Shown: positions 4,449 through 20,091 of the stretch, in pieces
How the letters are laid out: each line of letters opens with the position of its first letter
Numbering within the stretch: the first letter of the stretch is position 1
IMG/VR virus record: IMGVR_UViG_3300007735_000561
Location: 1 to 27,441 of that record
Reading direction: 5' to 3' (one strand)
Origin: a virus
Length of the DNA stretch: 27,441 nt
The notes under the pieces: model-generated
Told to the model about the DNA's origin: nothing
Database searches by the model: none
The model's input: the letters and a program-made list of their open reading frames with translations, nothing else
Program-made: the position numbers and the translations under genes

Positions 4449-4582
4449 TGGCAGTCAAAAGTAAGGTCGGCGCCAAGACTATCCAGCACACACCAGGCAA
4501 GCCGAAAAAGACTCGGCAGGGTCAAGGTCAGCACAGCTTGCCTAATCACGGCCGCAAGAAAACTCGTGGTCAAGGACGCTGA
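4448..4582 (+). CDS. Small very basic protein (44 aa), possible virion or nucleic-acid-binding protein
   Basis: Starts at the ATG that overlaps the previous stop. The product is rich in Lys, Arg, Gln and Gly, with the segments HTPGKPKKTRQGQGQ and GRKKTRGQGR. From memory, short proteins with the same 'GAK-T-PGKPKKTRQG...RGQG' layout recur near tail and lysis genes of cyanophages; this was not checked. The strong positive charge and absence of any hydrophobic core suggest binding to nucleic acid or to the virion. Function unknown. Confidence 0.7.
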   Translation: MAVKSKVGAKTIQHTPGKPKKTRQGQGQHSLPNHGRKKTRGQGR

Positions 4583-8308: not shown

Positions 8309-9235
8309 TTAACCCCAACCCCAGATCAAGCTGGAGCTGCAATTCTGTCGTTGAAACTTTCCCGGCGGTCCCTCTCGTAAGATCATTCGCAGTTCACGTT
8401 CTGCTACGTCTAACAGGCGTTTGATTGTGTCTTGCGCTGTGCCTACCTTCCGTGCAATTTCACGTTTTGAGCAAGGCTCCTCACCATCTAACCCGTAACG
8501 CATGATGATAATGTCTTTGTGCAAGGTATTCATGTGTGTTAGAGCTTGACGAACTGCTTCAATTTGAGTGTCTAAAAGTAAATCCTCCTCTGGTCTTTCT
8601 GTATCTGCTGGTATCAGATCAAGGATGGAACTGCCTTCCTCTCGCAGGGTTTTGACCTTAGCGTCAAGGCTTGTGGCATCCTGTGCGCTACGCATGTAAT
8701 CACGCAGGGTATGCGGTGCGATACCTGCATGAACGGCACAGTCTTCAATGCTTGGTTTTTCGCCGTGCTGTTCTTGGTAGTCCAGCATGTAAGAGCGAAC
8801 CTTACGAAGAATATCGTTAGCGCCTGTTGGCAATTTGATGATGCGATCTTGTACCTGAATTGACCGCATAATGCCTTGACGAATCCACCAGTAGGCATAT
8901 GTTGAAAATTTATACCCACGTTCGGGGTCGAATAATTCAACAGCGCGGATCAATCCAATGTTGCCTTCTTGTACAAGATCGTGCATGGTGACACGATTTG
9001 CCATGTGCTTATATTTTGAGGCGACACCAATGACAAGGCGCAAGTTGCCTTGAATCATTCGCTTCTTTGCCCGTGTCCCCACCTTGATAATCTTTAGTTC
9101 CTGTTTGGTGTATTGCTCCTTAAATCCGAGTGCCATCATCCTCTGGATGGCATGACCTAGTTCAATCTCCTCTGCTGCTGTTAGCAAAGGGATCTTACCG
9201 ATCTGATTTAGATAGTCGCGTAACGGGTCAGACAT
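8309..9235 (-). CDS. Phage-encoded sigma-70 family RNA polymerase sigma factor
   Basis: 308 residues from the ATG at 9235 (MSDPLRDYLNQIGK); a longer form could start at the ATG at 9271. Order: region 1.2 (1-34), region 2 (about 57-136, with GNLRLVIGVASKY, DLVQEGNIGLIRAVE, FSTYAYWWIRQ), region 3 (about 137-200) and region 4 (about 222-283). This is the primary or group 2 type, not an ECF or T4 gp55 type. It should direct host RNA polymerase to phage promoters. At the position of E. coli Thr440 in the -10 reading helix there is Met123. In region 4.2 the usual TRERIRQIE is replaced by AQDTIKRLL, changing the main -35 contacts. The C-terminal 20 residues (from GPPGKFQRQ) are an extra tail. An intrinsic terminator separates it from ssb. 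Confidence 0.93.
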   Translation of the reverse strand: MSDPLRDYLNQIGKIPLLTAAEEIELGHAIQRMMALGFKEQYTKQELKIIKVGTRAKKRMIQGNLRLVIGVASKYKHMANRVTMHDLVQEGNIGLIRAVELFDPERGYKFSTYAYWWIRQGIMRSIQVQDRIIKLPTGANDILRKVRSYMLDYQEQHGEKPSIEDCAVHAGIAPHTLRDYMRSAQDATSLDAKVKTLREEGSSILDLIPADTERPEEDLLLDTQIEAVRQALTHMNTLHKDIIIMRYGLDGEEPCSKREIARKVGTAQDTIKRLLDVAERELRMILREGPPGKFQRQNCSSSLIWGWG

Positions 9236-9243
9236 CTGATCAT

Positions 9244-9264
9244 AAAAAAGGGGGCAAAGCCCCC
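9244..9264 (-). terminator. Intrinsic terminator after ssb
   Basis: On the minus strand the transcript would form a perfect stem GGGGGC / GCCCCC with a UUU loop (9264-9250), followed directly by six U (9249-9244). It begins 7 bases after the ssb stop codon and ends 9 bases before the preferred sigma ATG. The longer sigma frame stays open across it. Confidence 0.85.
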
Positions 9265-9270
9265 CGGACA

Positions 9271-9603
9271 TTAGAACGGCATGTCGTCTTCAGCAACCCT
9301 AGGTCTGGGAGGCAACGTAAAATCGTTGACCGCCACATCCAAGGAAGCGCCAGGACTGCCATCCTTCCGCTCAAAGGTTTCGATGTAAGCCTGCCCAGTA
9401 ACGGTGACTTGAGCACCTTTGGTCAGGTATTCATCGACGACCTTAGCGCGTGGACCCCATACAGCGCAGCGAAGCACAGTGGTGTGATCTTCGCCTTTGA
9501 CCTTTTTGTTGACCATCAGGGTGAAGTTTGCAACCTCACGGTCACCAATCGTTTTAAGATCAGGGTCGGCGGCAAGGTTACCTACCGCAGTGATTTGGAG
9601 CAT
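9271..9603 (-). CDS. ssb: Single-stranded DNA-binding protein
   Basis: 110 residues, shorter than the roughly 150-180 of bacterial SSB but with the OB-fold pattern: MLQITAVGNLAADPDLK, VANFTLMVNKK, VLRCAVWGPRAKVVDEYL, KGAQVTVTGQAYIETF. It ends in DDMPF, the acidic tip that in bacterial SSB recruits partner proteins, after a very short linker. It would coat single-stranded DNA during replication and recombination. It overlaps the upstream small gene by 22 bases and is followed by a strong terminator. Neighbouring annealing-protein and RusA genes complete a recombination module. Confidence 0.93.
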   Translation of the reverse strand: MLQITAVGNLAADPDLKTIGDREVANFTLMVNKKVKGEDHTTVLRCAVWGPRAKVVDEYLTKGAQVTVTGQAYIETFERKDGSPGASLDVAVNDFTLPPRPRVAEDDMPF

Positions 9604-16103: not shown

Positions 16104-16274
16104 ATGATCGGATCTAGCACGAAAATTGCCATTGACGACACGATCCTCAAACGGCTTGAAGCCTTGATGCCTAGCTATCAGACCCGCAAACCTTATATCA
16201 ATATGTTACTTGATGAGGCTGCAACGCGTCTAGAAAACCAGCATCGTGCTCAAACAGATGAATGGGACAACTAA
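16104..16274 (+). CDS. Small ribbon-helix-helix-like regulator (56 aa)
   Basis: The start at 16104 (MIGSSTKIAIDDTILKRLEA) is chosen because upstream sequence is antisense to the nuclease. The pattern strand (TKIAIDD), helix (TILKRLEALMP), turn, helix (KPYINMLLDEAATRL) and the size fit an Arc/CopG-type ribbon-helix-helix DNA-binding protein. It would bind DNA as a dimer through the strand. It lies directly beside the inverted repeat at 16040-16075 and divergent to the early genes, the classic place for an early-gene regulator. The fold is inferred from pattern only. Confidence 0.6.
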   Translation: MIGSSTKIAIDDTILKRLEALMPSYQTRKPYINMLLDEAATRLENQHRAQTDEWDN

Positions 16275-16301
16275 AGGGTTTACAGGCTTAAAGGCATTGG
16301 T

Positions 16302-16341
16302 AAAATAAAAAGCCGCCCACCCAAGATCCGGGCAGGCGGCT
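16302..16341 (-). terminator. Leftward-facing intrinsic terminator
   Basis: AGCCGCC (16311-16317) pairs with GGCGGCT (16335-16341), with two mismatches and a further CCC/GGG pair inside. On the minus strand the stem is followed by TTTTTATTTTA (16311-16301); on the plus strand no T-run follows. It would stop transcription coming leftward from beyond 16341, although no leftward gene is seen there. Confidence 0.7.
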
Positions 16342-16366
16342 CGTCCAAAAGCACGCCCAAGTCTAC

Positions 16367-17155
16367 ATGAAGGCTCCAGTAAAGTCAACCGCTTTTGCGG
16401 TTGCACCATATGACCTGCTTGACGCTGACTTAGATCCAAGAGCAATCGTTGTTTATTTATGGCTACACCGTTTTGGCTGGAACTCGCCCAAAGGCTGTTA
16501 TGCATCACTGCAGACAATCTCAGAGCGATCAGGTGTTACCAGGAAGATGGTACAACGCTCGCTGAGCACTCTAGTTGAAACAGGCTGGATTCAGGTAGAA
16601 AAACGCCCTGGTTTTACAGCCGTCTACCACGTCATCGTGGACCACCTAGGTCAAAAACGACCTAGGTCAAAACGAACCCAGGTCGAAATCGACCCAGGTC
16701 AAAAACGACCTAGGGGTCAGGTCAAAAATGACCTAGGGGGTCAGGTCGAAAACGACCTACAAACAAAAACCCAATACCAAGAACCCATAACAAAAACCCT
16801 TATAAAGCTGGAAAGCGAGTTTCCAGCGGTTTGTCCTGAGCCAAAGCAAAGGCGTAAAACCAAGGGGTCGGACGCGTTTGAAAAATTCTGGAAAACGTAC
16901 CTGTCTGCACCCGTCCGTGCTGCCAGTCAGTCAAAGCCAAAGGCACTGGCGCAGTGGCAGAAAACTGTCCGGTCCGAATCTGAGGCAACCTTGCTTGAGG
17001 CATTGGAAACTGAGATCAGCCATCAGCACCTTGCTGCAGGCACGTTTGTCAGCCCACTGCCTGATTGCTTCCGTTGGTTACGCGACGAGCGTTACCTCAC
17101 CGTCAACGACCGCCCGCTTAATACCACCAACTACATTCCCGACGTGATTCGATGA
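16367..17155 (+). CDS. Winged-helix replication initiator candidate (lambda O-like)
   Basis: 262 residues. Residues about 18-90 form an HTH_36-type winged helix (DPRAIVVYLWLHRFG, YASLQTISERSGVTRKMVQR, ETGWIQVEKRPG), the domain found at the N-terminus of many phage replication initiators. Residues about 94-131 are a charged linker encoded by six DNA iterons. The C-terminal part (about 160-250; SDAFEKFWKTYLSAPVRAAS, then CFRWLRDERYL) looks like the helical region that in such proteins contacts a helicase or loader. An initiator whose gene contains the origin is exactly the lambda O layout. No helicase or loader gene follows, so host DnaB recruitment is inferred. Ends in an ATGA overlap with the next gene. 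Confidence 0.7.
   Translation: MKAPVKSTAFAVAPYDLLDADLDPRAIVVYLWLHRFGWNSPKGCYASLQTISERSGVTRKMVQRSLSTLVETGWIQVEKRPGFTAVYHVIVDHLGQKRPRSKRTQVEIDPGQKRPRGQVKNDLGGQVENDLQTKTQYQEPITKTLIKLESEFPAVCPEPKQRRKTKGSDAFEKFWKTYLSAPVRAASQSKPKALAQWQKTVRSESEATLLEALETEISHQHLAAGTFVSPLPDCFRWLRDERYLTVNDRPLNTTNYIPDVIR
16648..16805 (+). repeat. Six iterons and A-rich tract: probable replication origin
   Basis: Six 16-base units of the form AGGTC-RAAAAY-GACCT begin at 16648, 16664, 16680, 16696, 16719 and 16743. The first four are exactly head-to-tail; the last two are preceded by 7- and 8-base spacers (AGGGGTC, AGGGGGTC). Each unit is itself an inverted repeat. Units 2 and 3 carry arm changes (ACCC, ACCC). Immediately after follows an A-rich stretch (16759-16805) with only one G on the plus strand, like a DNA unwinding element. 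All this lies inside the coding frame of the initiator candidate. Confidence 0.8.
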
Positions 17156-17448
17156 AGCTGTTTAGTCCAGAGACGAAAAACCAATTTGTTTTTGCCGTGT
17201 TGCCTAAAGCTGCCAAGGAAGGAACCGCACCGGCGTTCCGCACTGTTGATGCCTACGACTTCGACGAGGCGCAACGCAAGCTGGATAAATTCCAACTTCG
17301 CAATGCCTATCCCTATCCGGTTGGGCGTTATGACGAGTTCGGCAGGTACATGACCTACAAGCCACCCGTCGAGGGAGTGACCCCTGGCAGGTTTGTGCTC
17401 CATCCGCACGCAGACGAGGAGCGTCGTCGTGAGGAGGCGTTTGCCTGA
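17152..17448 (+). CDS. Hypothetical protein (98 aa)
   Basis: Begins in an ATGA overlap with the initiator gene and ends overlapping the next ATG. A beta segment (FVFAVLPKAAKEG), a helix (FDEAQRKLDKFQ), a Tyr/Pro-rich middle (NAYPYPVGRYDEFGRY) and a basic, acidic tail (DEERRREEAFA). No motif recognised. Coupling to the initiator suggests a replication-linked role. Confidence 0.65.
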   Translation: MKLFSPETKNQFVFAVLPKAAKEGTAPAFRTVDAYDFDEAQRKLDKFQLRNAYPYPVGRYDEFGRYMTYKPPVEGVTPGRFVLHPHADEERRREEAFA

Positions 17449-17678
17449 TGGCACTTCAGCCAATCTCCACCGCTGTTGGTGCCCGCAAGTTGCTGCAGCG
17501 GTTAATCGATGCCAAACGCTGCAAGTTGGAGGATTTTGACAATCCACCACCAGGGCATATCAATCCAGGCATGTACCGCAACCTGCTGCGCGATCCCGTC
17601 GATGATGCAGAACCCAAAATCGAGGTGGTCAGTCCGCGTGACTTTGCCCCAACCGATGAACCCCCCCTTCCTTTCTGA
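17448..17678 (+). CDS. Small hypothetical protein (76 aa)
   Basis: An N-terminal helix (GARKLLQRLIDAKRCKLEDF) leads to DNPPPGHINPGMYRNLLRD and an acidic tail that ends DEPPLPF. The acidic end with a terminal Pro-Phe loosely recalls SSB tails, but this is weak. From memory, 'LLQRL.DA.R..LEDFDNPPPG' recurs in cyanophages. Function unknown. Confidence 0.65.
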   Translation: MALQPISTAVGARKLLQRLIDAKRCKLEDFDNPPPGHINPGMYRNLLRDPVDDAEPKIEVVSPRDFAPTDEPPLPF

Positions 17679-18473: not shown

Positions 18474-19241
18474 ATGACATCAATCAATAGCCTTAAGCAC
18501 GACCATAAAAATGCTCGTAGGCGGACTGATCGCTCTGCAATGCTGATTGCAGAATCGCTGAAGCGTTATGGTGCTGCACGCAGCATCGTCATTGACGAAG
18601 ACAATCGCATCCTTGCTGGTAACGGCACTATCGAAGGTGCCAAGCAGGCTGGCATCACGAACGTCCGCATCATTGACGCTGACGGCGATGAGGTGATTGC
18701 CGTTAGGCGTTCTGGTCTAACTGAGGACGAAAAGGTTGGTCTTGCCCTAGCTGATAACCGCACCAGCGACCTCAGCGAATGGGATGGTGCCATGCTTCAT
18801 CAACTCAGCGAAGAGCATGACATTACCGCCTGGTTCGACAAAAAAGAACTAGAGGAACTATTTGGCGCTGAGGAGGTCTTAGACGAAGACAGTCCTTACA
18901 CAAATAAAACCAATGCACCTATTTACGAGCCCACAGGTGAAATCCATAAACCAAAGCAGCTCTACGATCCAACTAAGACAAATCAGCTAATTGCCACAAT
19001 CGAAAATGCCGACATCCCTGACGACGTAAAGGCTTTCTTGATTTCAGCCGCTCATCGCCATACAGCTTTTAACTATAGCAAAATTGCCGACTATTACGCG
19101 ACTTCGCCAAAAGAAATTCAGACGCTCTTTGAAGATTCCGCTCTCGTCATAATCGACTTTGAGCAAGCAATCCAAAACGGATTTGTCAAACTCGACCAAA
19201 GCGTAGAAGAAGCCTTTAAGCAGGATCATCCTCATGCGTAA
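18474..19241 (+). CDS. ParB/Srx-like domain protein
   Basis: 255 residues. The N-terminal 105 residues match phage ParB-like domains: AESLKRYGAARSIVIDEDNR, ILAGNGTIEGAKQAG (variant of the ParB nucleotide-binding 'GxxR' box), VIAVRRSGLTEDEK and ALADNRTSDL. There is no fused methyltransferase, although many phage ParB domains of this subtype are fused to one. The C-terminal half is a separate helical domain (IPDDVKAFLISAAHRHTAFN, YYATSPKEIQTLFEDSALVI). ParB/Srx domains bind or hydrolyse nucleotides and DNA. It overlaps the glycosyltransferase-like gene by 8 bases, so the two are probably partners in DNA modification; this link is inference from context. Confidence 0.75.
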   Translation: MTSINSLKHDHKNARRRTDRSAMLIAESLKRYGAARSIVIDEDNRILAGNGTIEGAKQAGITNVRIIDADGDEVIAVRRSGLTEDEKVGLALADNRTSDLSEWDGAMLHQLSEEHDITAWFDKKELEELFGAEEVLDEDSPYTNKTNAPIYEPTGEIHKPKQLYDPTKTNQLIATIENADIPDDVKAFLISAAHRHTAFNYSKIADYYATSPKEIQTLFEDSALVIIDFEQAIQNGFVKLDQSVEEAFKQDHPHA

Positions 19242-20091
19242 TGACTTCTGCGTATTTATCCTGTCAAATCGTAGACCGGATAACATTAAAACTCTAGAAA
19301 CACTGGAGCGTTCTGGTTACACCGGCAAATGGTATATCGTGATTGACGACGAAGACCCAACTGGTAATCAATACAAAGCAACTTACGGAGATAAAGTCCT
19401 TGTATTCTCAAAAGCTAAAATTGCACAAACAACAGATTCCTGCGATACTTCAACCGACAGACGCACACCACTCTGGGCTCGTAACGCCTGCTGGGATTTA
19501 GCAAAACAAGTCAAATGTCGTTTCTTTTGCCAACTAGACGACGATTACAGTTGGTTTGCTTACCGCAGAATCGGTCGCAAAAATCCAGCAGAACCACCTA
19601 AATACTCGAATTTTAAAGCACAAAGCCTTGACATCATCTTTACTGGCATGGTCCAATTCCTTCAGGAAACGCCATCCGTTTCCAGCATTGCTTTTTCTCA
19701 AGGAGGTGACTACAACACAGATTCACTAAAAGCAAGACGAGTTCTGCGTAAAGCAATGAACTCATTTTTCTGTGACTCTGAACGCCCATTTAACTTCATC
19801 GGTAAATTTAACGACGACGTCAATACCTACATTTCACACGGTGCTACCGGCAAACTATTCTTTACCTACTGCCCCATTCAGTTAGAACAAGCTCAAACTC
19901 AAAAGAATAAAGGCGGTATCACTGAAGCCTACAAAGAAAGTGGCACTTATGTAAAATCTTTCTACACAGTCATGATCTCTCCATCCTCAACATGGATTGA
20001 ACTCATGGGTCATTCCAATCCACGCTTACATCACACTCATGATTGGAATAAAGTCTGTCCCAAAATTATTCATGAAAAATATCGACGCTAA
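19234..20091 (+). CDS. GT-A-like glycosyltransferase, candidate TET-associated (TAGT) type
   Basis: 285 residues. YIVIDDEDPTGNQY (about 34-47) and the segment ARNACWDLAKQVK followed by FFCQLDDDYSWF (LDDDY at 101-105) form the pattern of a GT-A fold with an acidic metal/sugar-nucleotide site. This combination resembles the TAGT glycosyltransferases described by comparative genomics in phages, where they sit beside base-oxidising TET/JBP genes and ParB-like genes and may add sugar to modified bases. No TET/JBP gene is in this window. Over four 60-base lines counted by hand GC is about 43%, against about 50% in a terL line, which hints at transfer. Alternative: a glycosyltransferase acting on host envelope. 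Confidence 0.6.
   Translation: MRNDFCVFILSNRRPDNIKTLETLERSGYTGKWYIVIDDEDPTGNQYKATYGDKVLVFSKAKIAQTTDSCDTSTDRRTPLWARNACWDLAKQVKCRFFCQLDDDYSWFAYRRIGRKNPAEPPKYSNFKAQSLDIIFTGMVQFLQETPSVSSIAFSQGGDYNTDSLKARRVLRKAMNSFFCDSERPFNFIGKFNDDVNTYISHGATGKLFFTYCPIQLEQAQTQKNKGGITEAYKESGTYVKSFYTVMISPSSTWIELMGHSNPRLHHTHDWNKVCPKIIHEKYRR

Follow-up and report, generated by a model that had tools for sequence, protein, structure and literature searches.

We find that the element at 16648-16827 of a 27,441-base viral sequence (the window, taken whole from an IMG/VR virus record) is very probably a theta-type phage replication origin lying inside its own initiator gene. Judged from sequence, it appears to be a lambda-type in-gene origin whose initiator belongs to another family, a known kind in a new case. 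It combines dyad iterons in the initiator gene, a strand-biased A-rich tract and an inverted repeat beyond the tract, features which are those of the lambda type. The original prediction of a lambda-like origin in this gene is upheld by a match of the protein to an initiator profile (PHROG_270), by preservation of the DNA in relatives and by the same order of elements in the lambda record. Coordinates are collected in Table 1.

Table 1. Features in and around the initiator gene (window coordinates)
Feature	Position	Strand	Basis
Initiator gene, 262 aa: HTH_36 winged helix, linker, C-terminal domain	16367-17155	+	PF13730, PHROG_270, AlphaFold2 model
Winged-helix DNA-binding domain, residues 9-92	16391-16642	+	AlphaFold2 model; solved winged-helix folds
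Recognition helix, residues 59-72	16541-16582	+	within winged-helix domain
Linker, residues 95-161, predicted disordered; translation of the origin	16649-16849	+	pLDDT <50
C-terminal domain, residues 162-250; putative replisome recruiter	16850-17116	+	models; weak structural likeness
Iteron 1, AGGTCAAAAACGACCT, perfect arms	16648-16663	+	sequence inspection
Iteron 2, AGGTCAAAACGAACCC, 2 arm mismatches	16664-16679	+	sequence inspection
Iteron 3, AGGTCGAAATCGACCC, 1 arm mismatch	16680-16695	+	sequence inspection
Iteron 4, AGGTCAAAAACGACCT, perfect arms	16696-16711	+	sequence inspection
Iteron 5, AGGTCAAAAATGACCT, perfect arms	16719-16734	+	sequence inspection
Iteron 6, AGGTCGAAAACGACCT, perfect arms	16743-16758	+	sequence inspection
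A-rich, G-poor tract of 13-14-base AACAAGAACCC-like repeats; proposed unwinding element	16760-16806	+	composition, TRF, conservation
Hairpin GCTGGAAA-GCGAG-TTTCCAGC, perfect 8-bp stem, right of the A-rich tract	16807-16827		variants, DNA fold
Leftward intrinsic-terminator-like hairpin and T run, proposed tO analogue	16310-16342	-	15 pairs, RNA fold z -4.16
Leftward promoter-like TTGACT-N17-TAGACT over the start codon, proposed pO analogue	16360-16388	-	sequence, relatives
Rightward promoter-like TTTACA-N16-TAAAAT ahead of the initiator	16279-16306	+	sequence

The initiator and the element within its gene

The protein matches PF13730 (HTH_36) at 1.3e-10 in the Pfam search and the PHROG_270 'replication initiation protein' profile at 1.6e-23 over residues 13-245, most of its length; several O-like initiator families match more weakly in the same PHROG search. 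The PHROG_270 profile identifies the protein as a replication initiator. The AlphaFold2 model (m4fd403ee124c) is confident for the winged helix and for the C-terminal domain, with pLDDT <50 at residues 95-161. Among solved folds, the winged helix is like those of RepA_N initiators, at Z about 9 (4pql, 4pt7 and 5kbj resemble it at fold level with Z 8.5-9.4). The C-terminal domain, which carries the motifs FWKxYLSAPVRAASQSKPKA and PDCFRWLRDER, weakly resembles phage replisome organizers and RepA-like initiators in structure, and a comparison with the PDB by sequence and by fold returned no useful match and no significant solved relative. Just 5′ of the gene, a 56-aa small ORF at 16104-16274 has no Pfam match; by eye it looks ribbon-helix-helix-like, and cyanophage KBS-S-2A has a small ORF at the same place. 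The two genes that follow the initiator (17152-17448 and 17448-17678) matched no Pfam or PHROG family.

Six AGGTC-N6-GACCT units had been predicted in the middle of the gene. Six 16-base units are indeed present; their arms are perfect in four only, unit 2 having two mismatches and unit 3 one. The first four are exactly tandem as proposed, with starts at 16648, 16664, 16680 and 16696, and the start-to-start spacings along the array are 16, 16, 16, 23 and 24. The 47-base A-rich tract with its single G was likewise recovered at 16760-16806 (A27 C14 T5 G1), and TRF finds a period of 13 within it at 16762-16799. The original prediction overlooked the hairpin (DNA fold z -2.95), which directly abuts the tract, so the element is better stated as 16648-16827, past the end first given. 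Two other uses of local sequence were set aside: the hairpin as a rightward terminator, since relatives keep the stem and not the T run, and GC skew as an origin locator, since in the window it changes sign with gene direction and marks no origin.

The hairpin stem is present in all 38 genes examined from the two dyad classes A (AGGTC/GACCT) and B (GGAGC/GCTCC). Its 12 distinct variants in these classes are 100% paired, with compensatory changes on both sides at 3 of 8 pairs, as in GCTGGAA/TTCCAGC, GCTGCAA/TTGCAGC and GCTTCAA/TTGAAGC, and with them the amino acids encoded by the two arms change in step (LE..FP, LQ..FA). Genes of class C (CTACTGG, CCTTCC) have a GGTATTTC-TGAC-GAAATACC hairpin and an additional GCTGCAAA stem.

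Dyads bound by winged-helix dimers are typical of repressors, and a possible start of a leftward transcript lies nearby, so the array could be an operator through which the protein regulates its own transcription rather than an origin. We consider this unlikely: the array lies some 280 bp into the coding sequence, an A-rich tract of the unwinding type and a covarying hairpin adjoin it, and the profile family is one of initiators. Autoregulation on top of initiation is possible. Under the origin reading, the initiator would bind every 16-bp dyad through its winged helix, probably as dimers, and the filled array would strain and then open the neighbouring A-rich tract. The C-terminal domain, held on the disordered linker as a tether, would recruit the host helicase or primase. 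Past the tract, the hairpin would add a third cis element, placed as in the lambda origin, with a possible part in loading or single-strand priming.

Selection on the DNA of the linker

Codons were shuffled among synonymous positions only, which leaves the protein unchanged. In 5000 such shuffles no 5-6-5 dyad word ever arose in four copies, and the total of 7 5-6-5 dyads in the real sequence was reached in 1. The dyad score of the linker is 101 against 21 +/- 12 in the shuffles, none of 500 being as high. Among eight relatives of one length, aligned without gaps, divergence at third codon positions amounts to 0.53 across the DNA-binding domain and 0.47 across the C-terminal domain; it is 0.08 in the iterons, 0.04 in the A-rich tract and 0.18 in the hairpin. 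Codons 93-142 have a mean of 0.07, and the lowest of the 99 other 50-codon blocks is 0.45. The sharp drop in the iterons and tract indicates that selection acts on the DNA of the element, in line with the earlier suggestion that the DNA rather than a protein repeat is selected.

It had also been proposed that the linker between the two domains is the translation of the iterons, and the predicted disorder at residues 95-161 does coincide with the element. With pLDDT <50 across nt 16649-16849, the stretch of protein predicted to lack structure is the stretch of DNA that appears to be selected. The repeats might instead be a by-product of a linker that is useful as a basic, repetitive peptide (GQKRPR, QVKNDL), such as a tail that sticks to DNA. 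The linker is basic and its hexapeptide is repeated, GQKRPR recurring after 16 residues as first described (48 nt = 3 x 16), but the 16-base period is read in every frame, synonymous positions are fixed within the element and vary freely outside it, and the dyads are lost when codons are shuffled with the peptide unchanged. The dyads are also kept while the peptide shifts, for example from QVKNDL to RSKNAP to PTPGTPSNP, making a peptide-driven repeat highly improbable. Comparison of homologues revealed the opposite of a conserved linker without repeats, as the dyads stay and both the linker peptide and the dyad letters change.

Matched specificities and cassette exchange

Relatives of the initiator were drawn from 79 viral loci found in one scan; a second viral scan with alignment gave the same contigs, and a profile scan of genome contigs found no relative. 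The dyads recur at the same place in relatives, in five or six copies, but with other letters: AGGTC/GACCT in L001-L030, GGAGC/GCTCC in L031-L042, CCTACTGG/CCAGTAGG and CCTTCC/GGAAGG types in L044-L058, GGTACC in L061 and L062, and CGGCA/TGCCG in L064-L078. Between AGGTC/GACCT and GGAGC/GCTCC, three of the five arm positions differ, on both sides. Residues at the start of the recognition helix vary by class, being TRK or SRK with AGGTC, CEK with GGAGC, RDR with CTACTGG/CTCCTGG, and KHR or IHR with CCTT(CC). The A-rich AACAAGAACCC tract is kept in classes A and B and takes variant forms in the others. Most classes show a clear excess of dyads compared with synonymous shuffles; the excess is weak in L061, L064 and KBS-S-2A, with shuffles scoring as high in 46 of 500 for L064 and 206 of 500 for KBS-S-2A (L157). 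Some class B units, such as GGGTC-N6-GCTCC, pair the left half of class A with the right half of class B, as though halfway from one specificity to the other.

A tree of the DNA-binding domain built with the recognition helix left out requires two changes among iteron classes A, B and C, the minimum possible, whereas the C-terminal-domain trees require nine (protein) and eight (DNA). AU tests on the C-terminal-domain DNA tree reject the clades of both class A (p 0.0003) and class B (p 1.3e-5). Mean identity of the DNA-binding domain is 74% within A and 72% within B versus 53% between A and B; for the C-terminal domain the corresponding values are 72%, 74% and 73%. Since the monophyly of the classes is kept by the DNA-binding domain and rejected for the C-terminal domain, the DNA-binding domain and the iterons appear to recombine as one cassette against the C-terminal domain. 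Linkage probably accounts for part of this co-travel of dyad class and DNA-binding domain because the two adjoin on the DNA. The class-matched helix residues argue for functional pairing, with only about four independent switches.

That the dyad class follows the DNA-binding domain of the same gene also bears on a centromere-like partition site, for example for the ParB-like PHROG_620 protein encoded 1.7 kb downstream (18474-19241): although plasmid centromere-binding proteins are among the nearest solved winged helices in Foldseek, partition has no use for an A-rich tract and hairpin, and the iterons are found, as those of lambda are, within an initiator gene, so such a site is very improbable.

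The PDCFRWLRDE C-terminal domain is joined to very different N-terminal parts in the genes at 4611-5309 of L069 and 4554-5297 of L079, and neither of these parts matched a Pfam family. In L079, 18-base repeats (CGCACCTGAAGTGACTTG) at 4489-4573 span the gene start, outside the linker.

A leftward element and comparison with known systems

At the start of the initiator gene we observed a conserved pair of leftward signals. The terminator-like hairpin is GC-rich and lies upstream of the start codon, with its T run on the minus strand; such a leftward hairpin occurs in 35 of 36 loci versus 12% of shuffles, and a rightward one in only 3 of 36. In 92% of 25 loci the start codon is overlapped, always at the same position, by a minus-strand -10-like TAnnnT, and the -35-like hexamer 17 bp from it has a mean of 2.96 of 6 matches compared with 1.47 in the background. 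This sequence context is absent from the other window gene starts that were checked; a TACATG before the start codon, considered as a general translation context, does not precede the other window genes checked either. The conserved pair at 16310-16388 looks like lambda pO/oop and may make RNA. The rightward promoter-like sequence is also found in L001, L003, L018 and L032 and not in the other 20 loci examined; a transcript from it would begin at the stem of the leftward terminator. A match to Rfam RF02883 on the minus strand at 16305-16449 scores 20.5 bits against a gathering score of 40 and was dismissed as chance or a generic terminator stem.

In the lambda record (L158), four iterons at 39034-39118, spaced 20, 24 and 23, lie within O (38686-39585) and are followed by an A-rich stretch and a predicted 10-bp stem, ATTCGTCAGA-GAAT-TCTGGCGAAT. 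The order of iterons, A-rich tract and hairpin is thus that of the window, the origin is mid-gene between DNA-binding and C-terminal parts, and the iterons of both are dyads, imperfect in lambda. Iteron number varies among lambdoid relatives as well, from four in lambda to six in Stx phages (PMC7466680). In lambda, pO at the 5′ end of O lies over the start codon with a terminator just beyond and makes the short leftward oop RNA, and pO activity affects origin function (PMC3985674); the leftward element of the window is similarly arranged. The differences are that the window iterons are 16 bp with other letters and those of lambda 18-19, that no P gene recognisable by Pfam or PHROG adjoins the window initiator, and that the host is probably a cyanobacterium. 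The initiators also differ: lambda O matches Phage_rep_O (PF04492) at 5.7e-36, whereas the window initiator, an HTH_36 (PF13730) protein, has no PF04492 match at E up to 1 in the Pfam search. With the same order and place but no common Pfam family, the origin would work like that of lambda while its initiator appears not to be a member of the lambda O family.

Staphylococcal RepA_N plasmids offer a second comparison. In pSK41, the Rep boxes and origin are central in rep, between the winged-helix N-terminal and the C-terminal domains, and rep is controlled by an antisense RNA over its leader (PMC5703833). In the chimeric pPR9 replicon, the N-terminal domain and origin have been swapped for a pfam13730 (HTH_36) version and the C-terminal domain kept, and pPR9 became compatible with pSK41 (PMC5703833). 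While pPR9 is a single described case, exchange of the same kind appears many times among the window relatives. These are plasmids of Gram-positive bacteria, and the RepA_N domain is not the family of the window initiator; RepA_N is absent from its Pfam list, and the PDB comparisons by sequence and by fold did not match its C-terminal domain to the solved one of Rep.

The nearest isolate by initiator is cyanophage KBS-S-2A (HQ634187, host Synechococcus WH7803), whose CPKG_00028, annotated only as a hypothetical protein, is homologous in its N-terminal domain (residues 1-89, 45% identical). The gene neighbourhood is the same, and a AATAAAAACCC tract is followed by a GGCGC-AA-GCGCC hairpin; the C-terminal part of CPKG_00028 is different, and its repeats are GC-rich with dyads that are not significant by the shuffle test. 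KBS-S-2A has neither a polymerase nor a helicase among its annotated genes, as would suit a phage that relies on the host replisome. Because of this kinship and because the top-scoring model for the window sigma factor (8309-9271, minus strand) is that of cyanobacterial RpoD, TIGR02997, though below cut-off, a cyanobacterial host is likely for the window phage. KBS-S-2A also encodes a sigma factor. Sak-like, RusA and SSB neighbours are signs of a recombination and replication region, and a TET-associated glycosyltransferase (19234-20091; PF20691, 3.2e-30) that adjoins the ParB-like gene hints at DNA base hypermodification.

We give slightly less than an even chance to a joint reading with at least five initiator-origin specificities, trade in cassettes, an oop-like RNA and the whole lambda arrangement around an initiator of another family. 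The winged helix and iterons would co-diverge through a few recognition-helix residues, and the cassettes would be traded between phages against a constant C-terminal domain, perhaps to evade interference between co-infecting replicons. The leftward promoter-terminator pair over the initiator start would yield a short oop-like RNA, so that pO/oop, DNA-binding domain, origin and effector domain would form a recurring lambda arrangement.

In-gene iteron origins have long been known from lambda and some plasmids. Most noteworthy here are the series of matched specificities, their cassette exchange and the conserved leftward element. The matching of initiators to origins was previously argued from a handful of cases; dozens of environmental phages display it, with dyad letters, recognition-helix residues and domain exchange all readable from their sequences. 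A literature search found no paper describing the origin of cyanophages of the KBS-S-2A kind, and these phages gain a candidate origin. The relatives may serve as ready-made orthogonal initiator-origin pairs. They also suggest a testable account of why the origin sits in the initiator gene: one crossover in or beyond the linker would swap the recognition domain and its target together.
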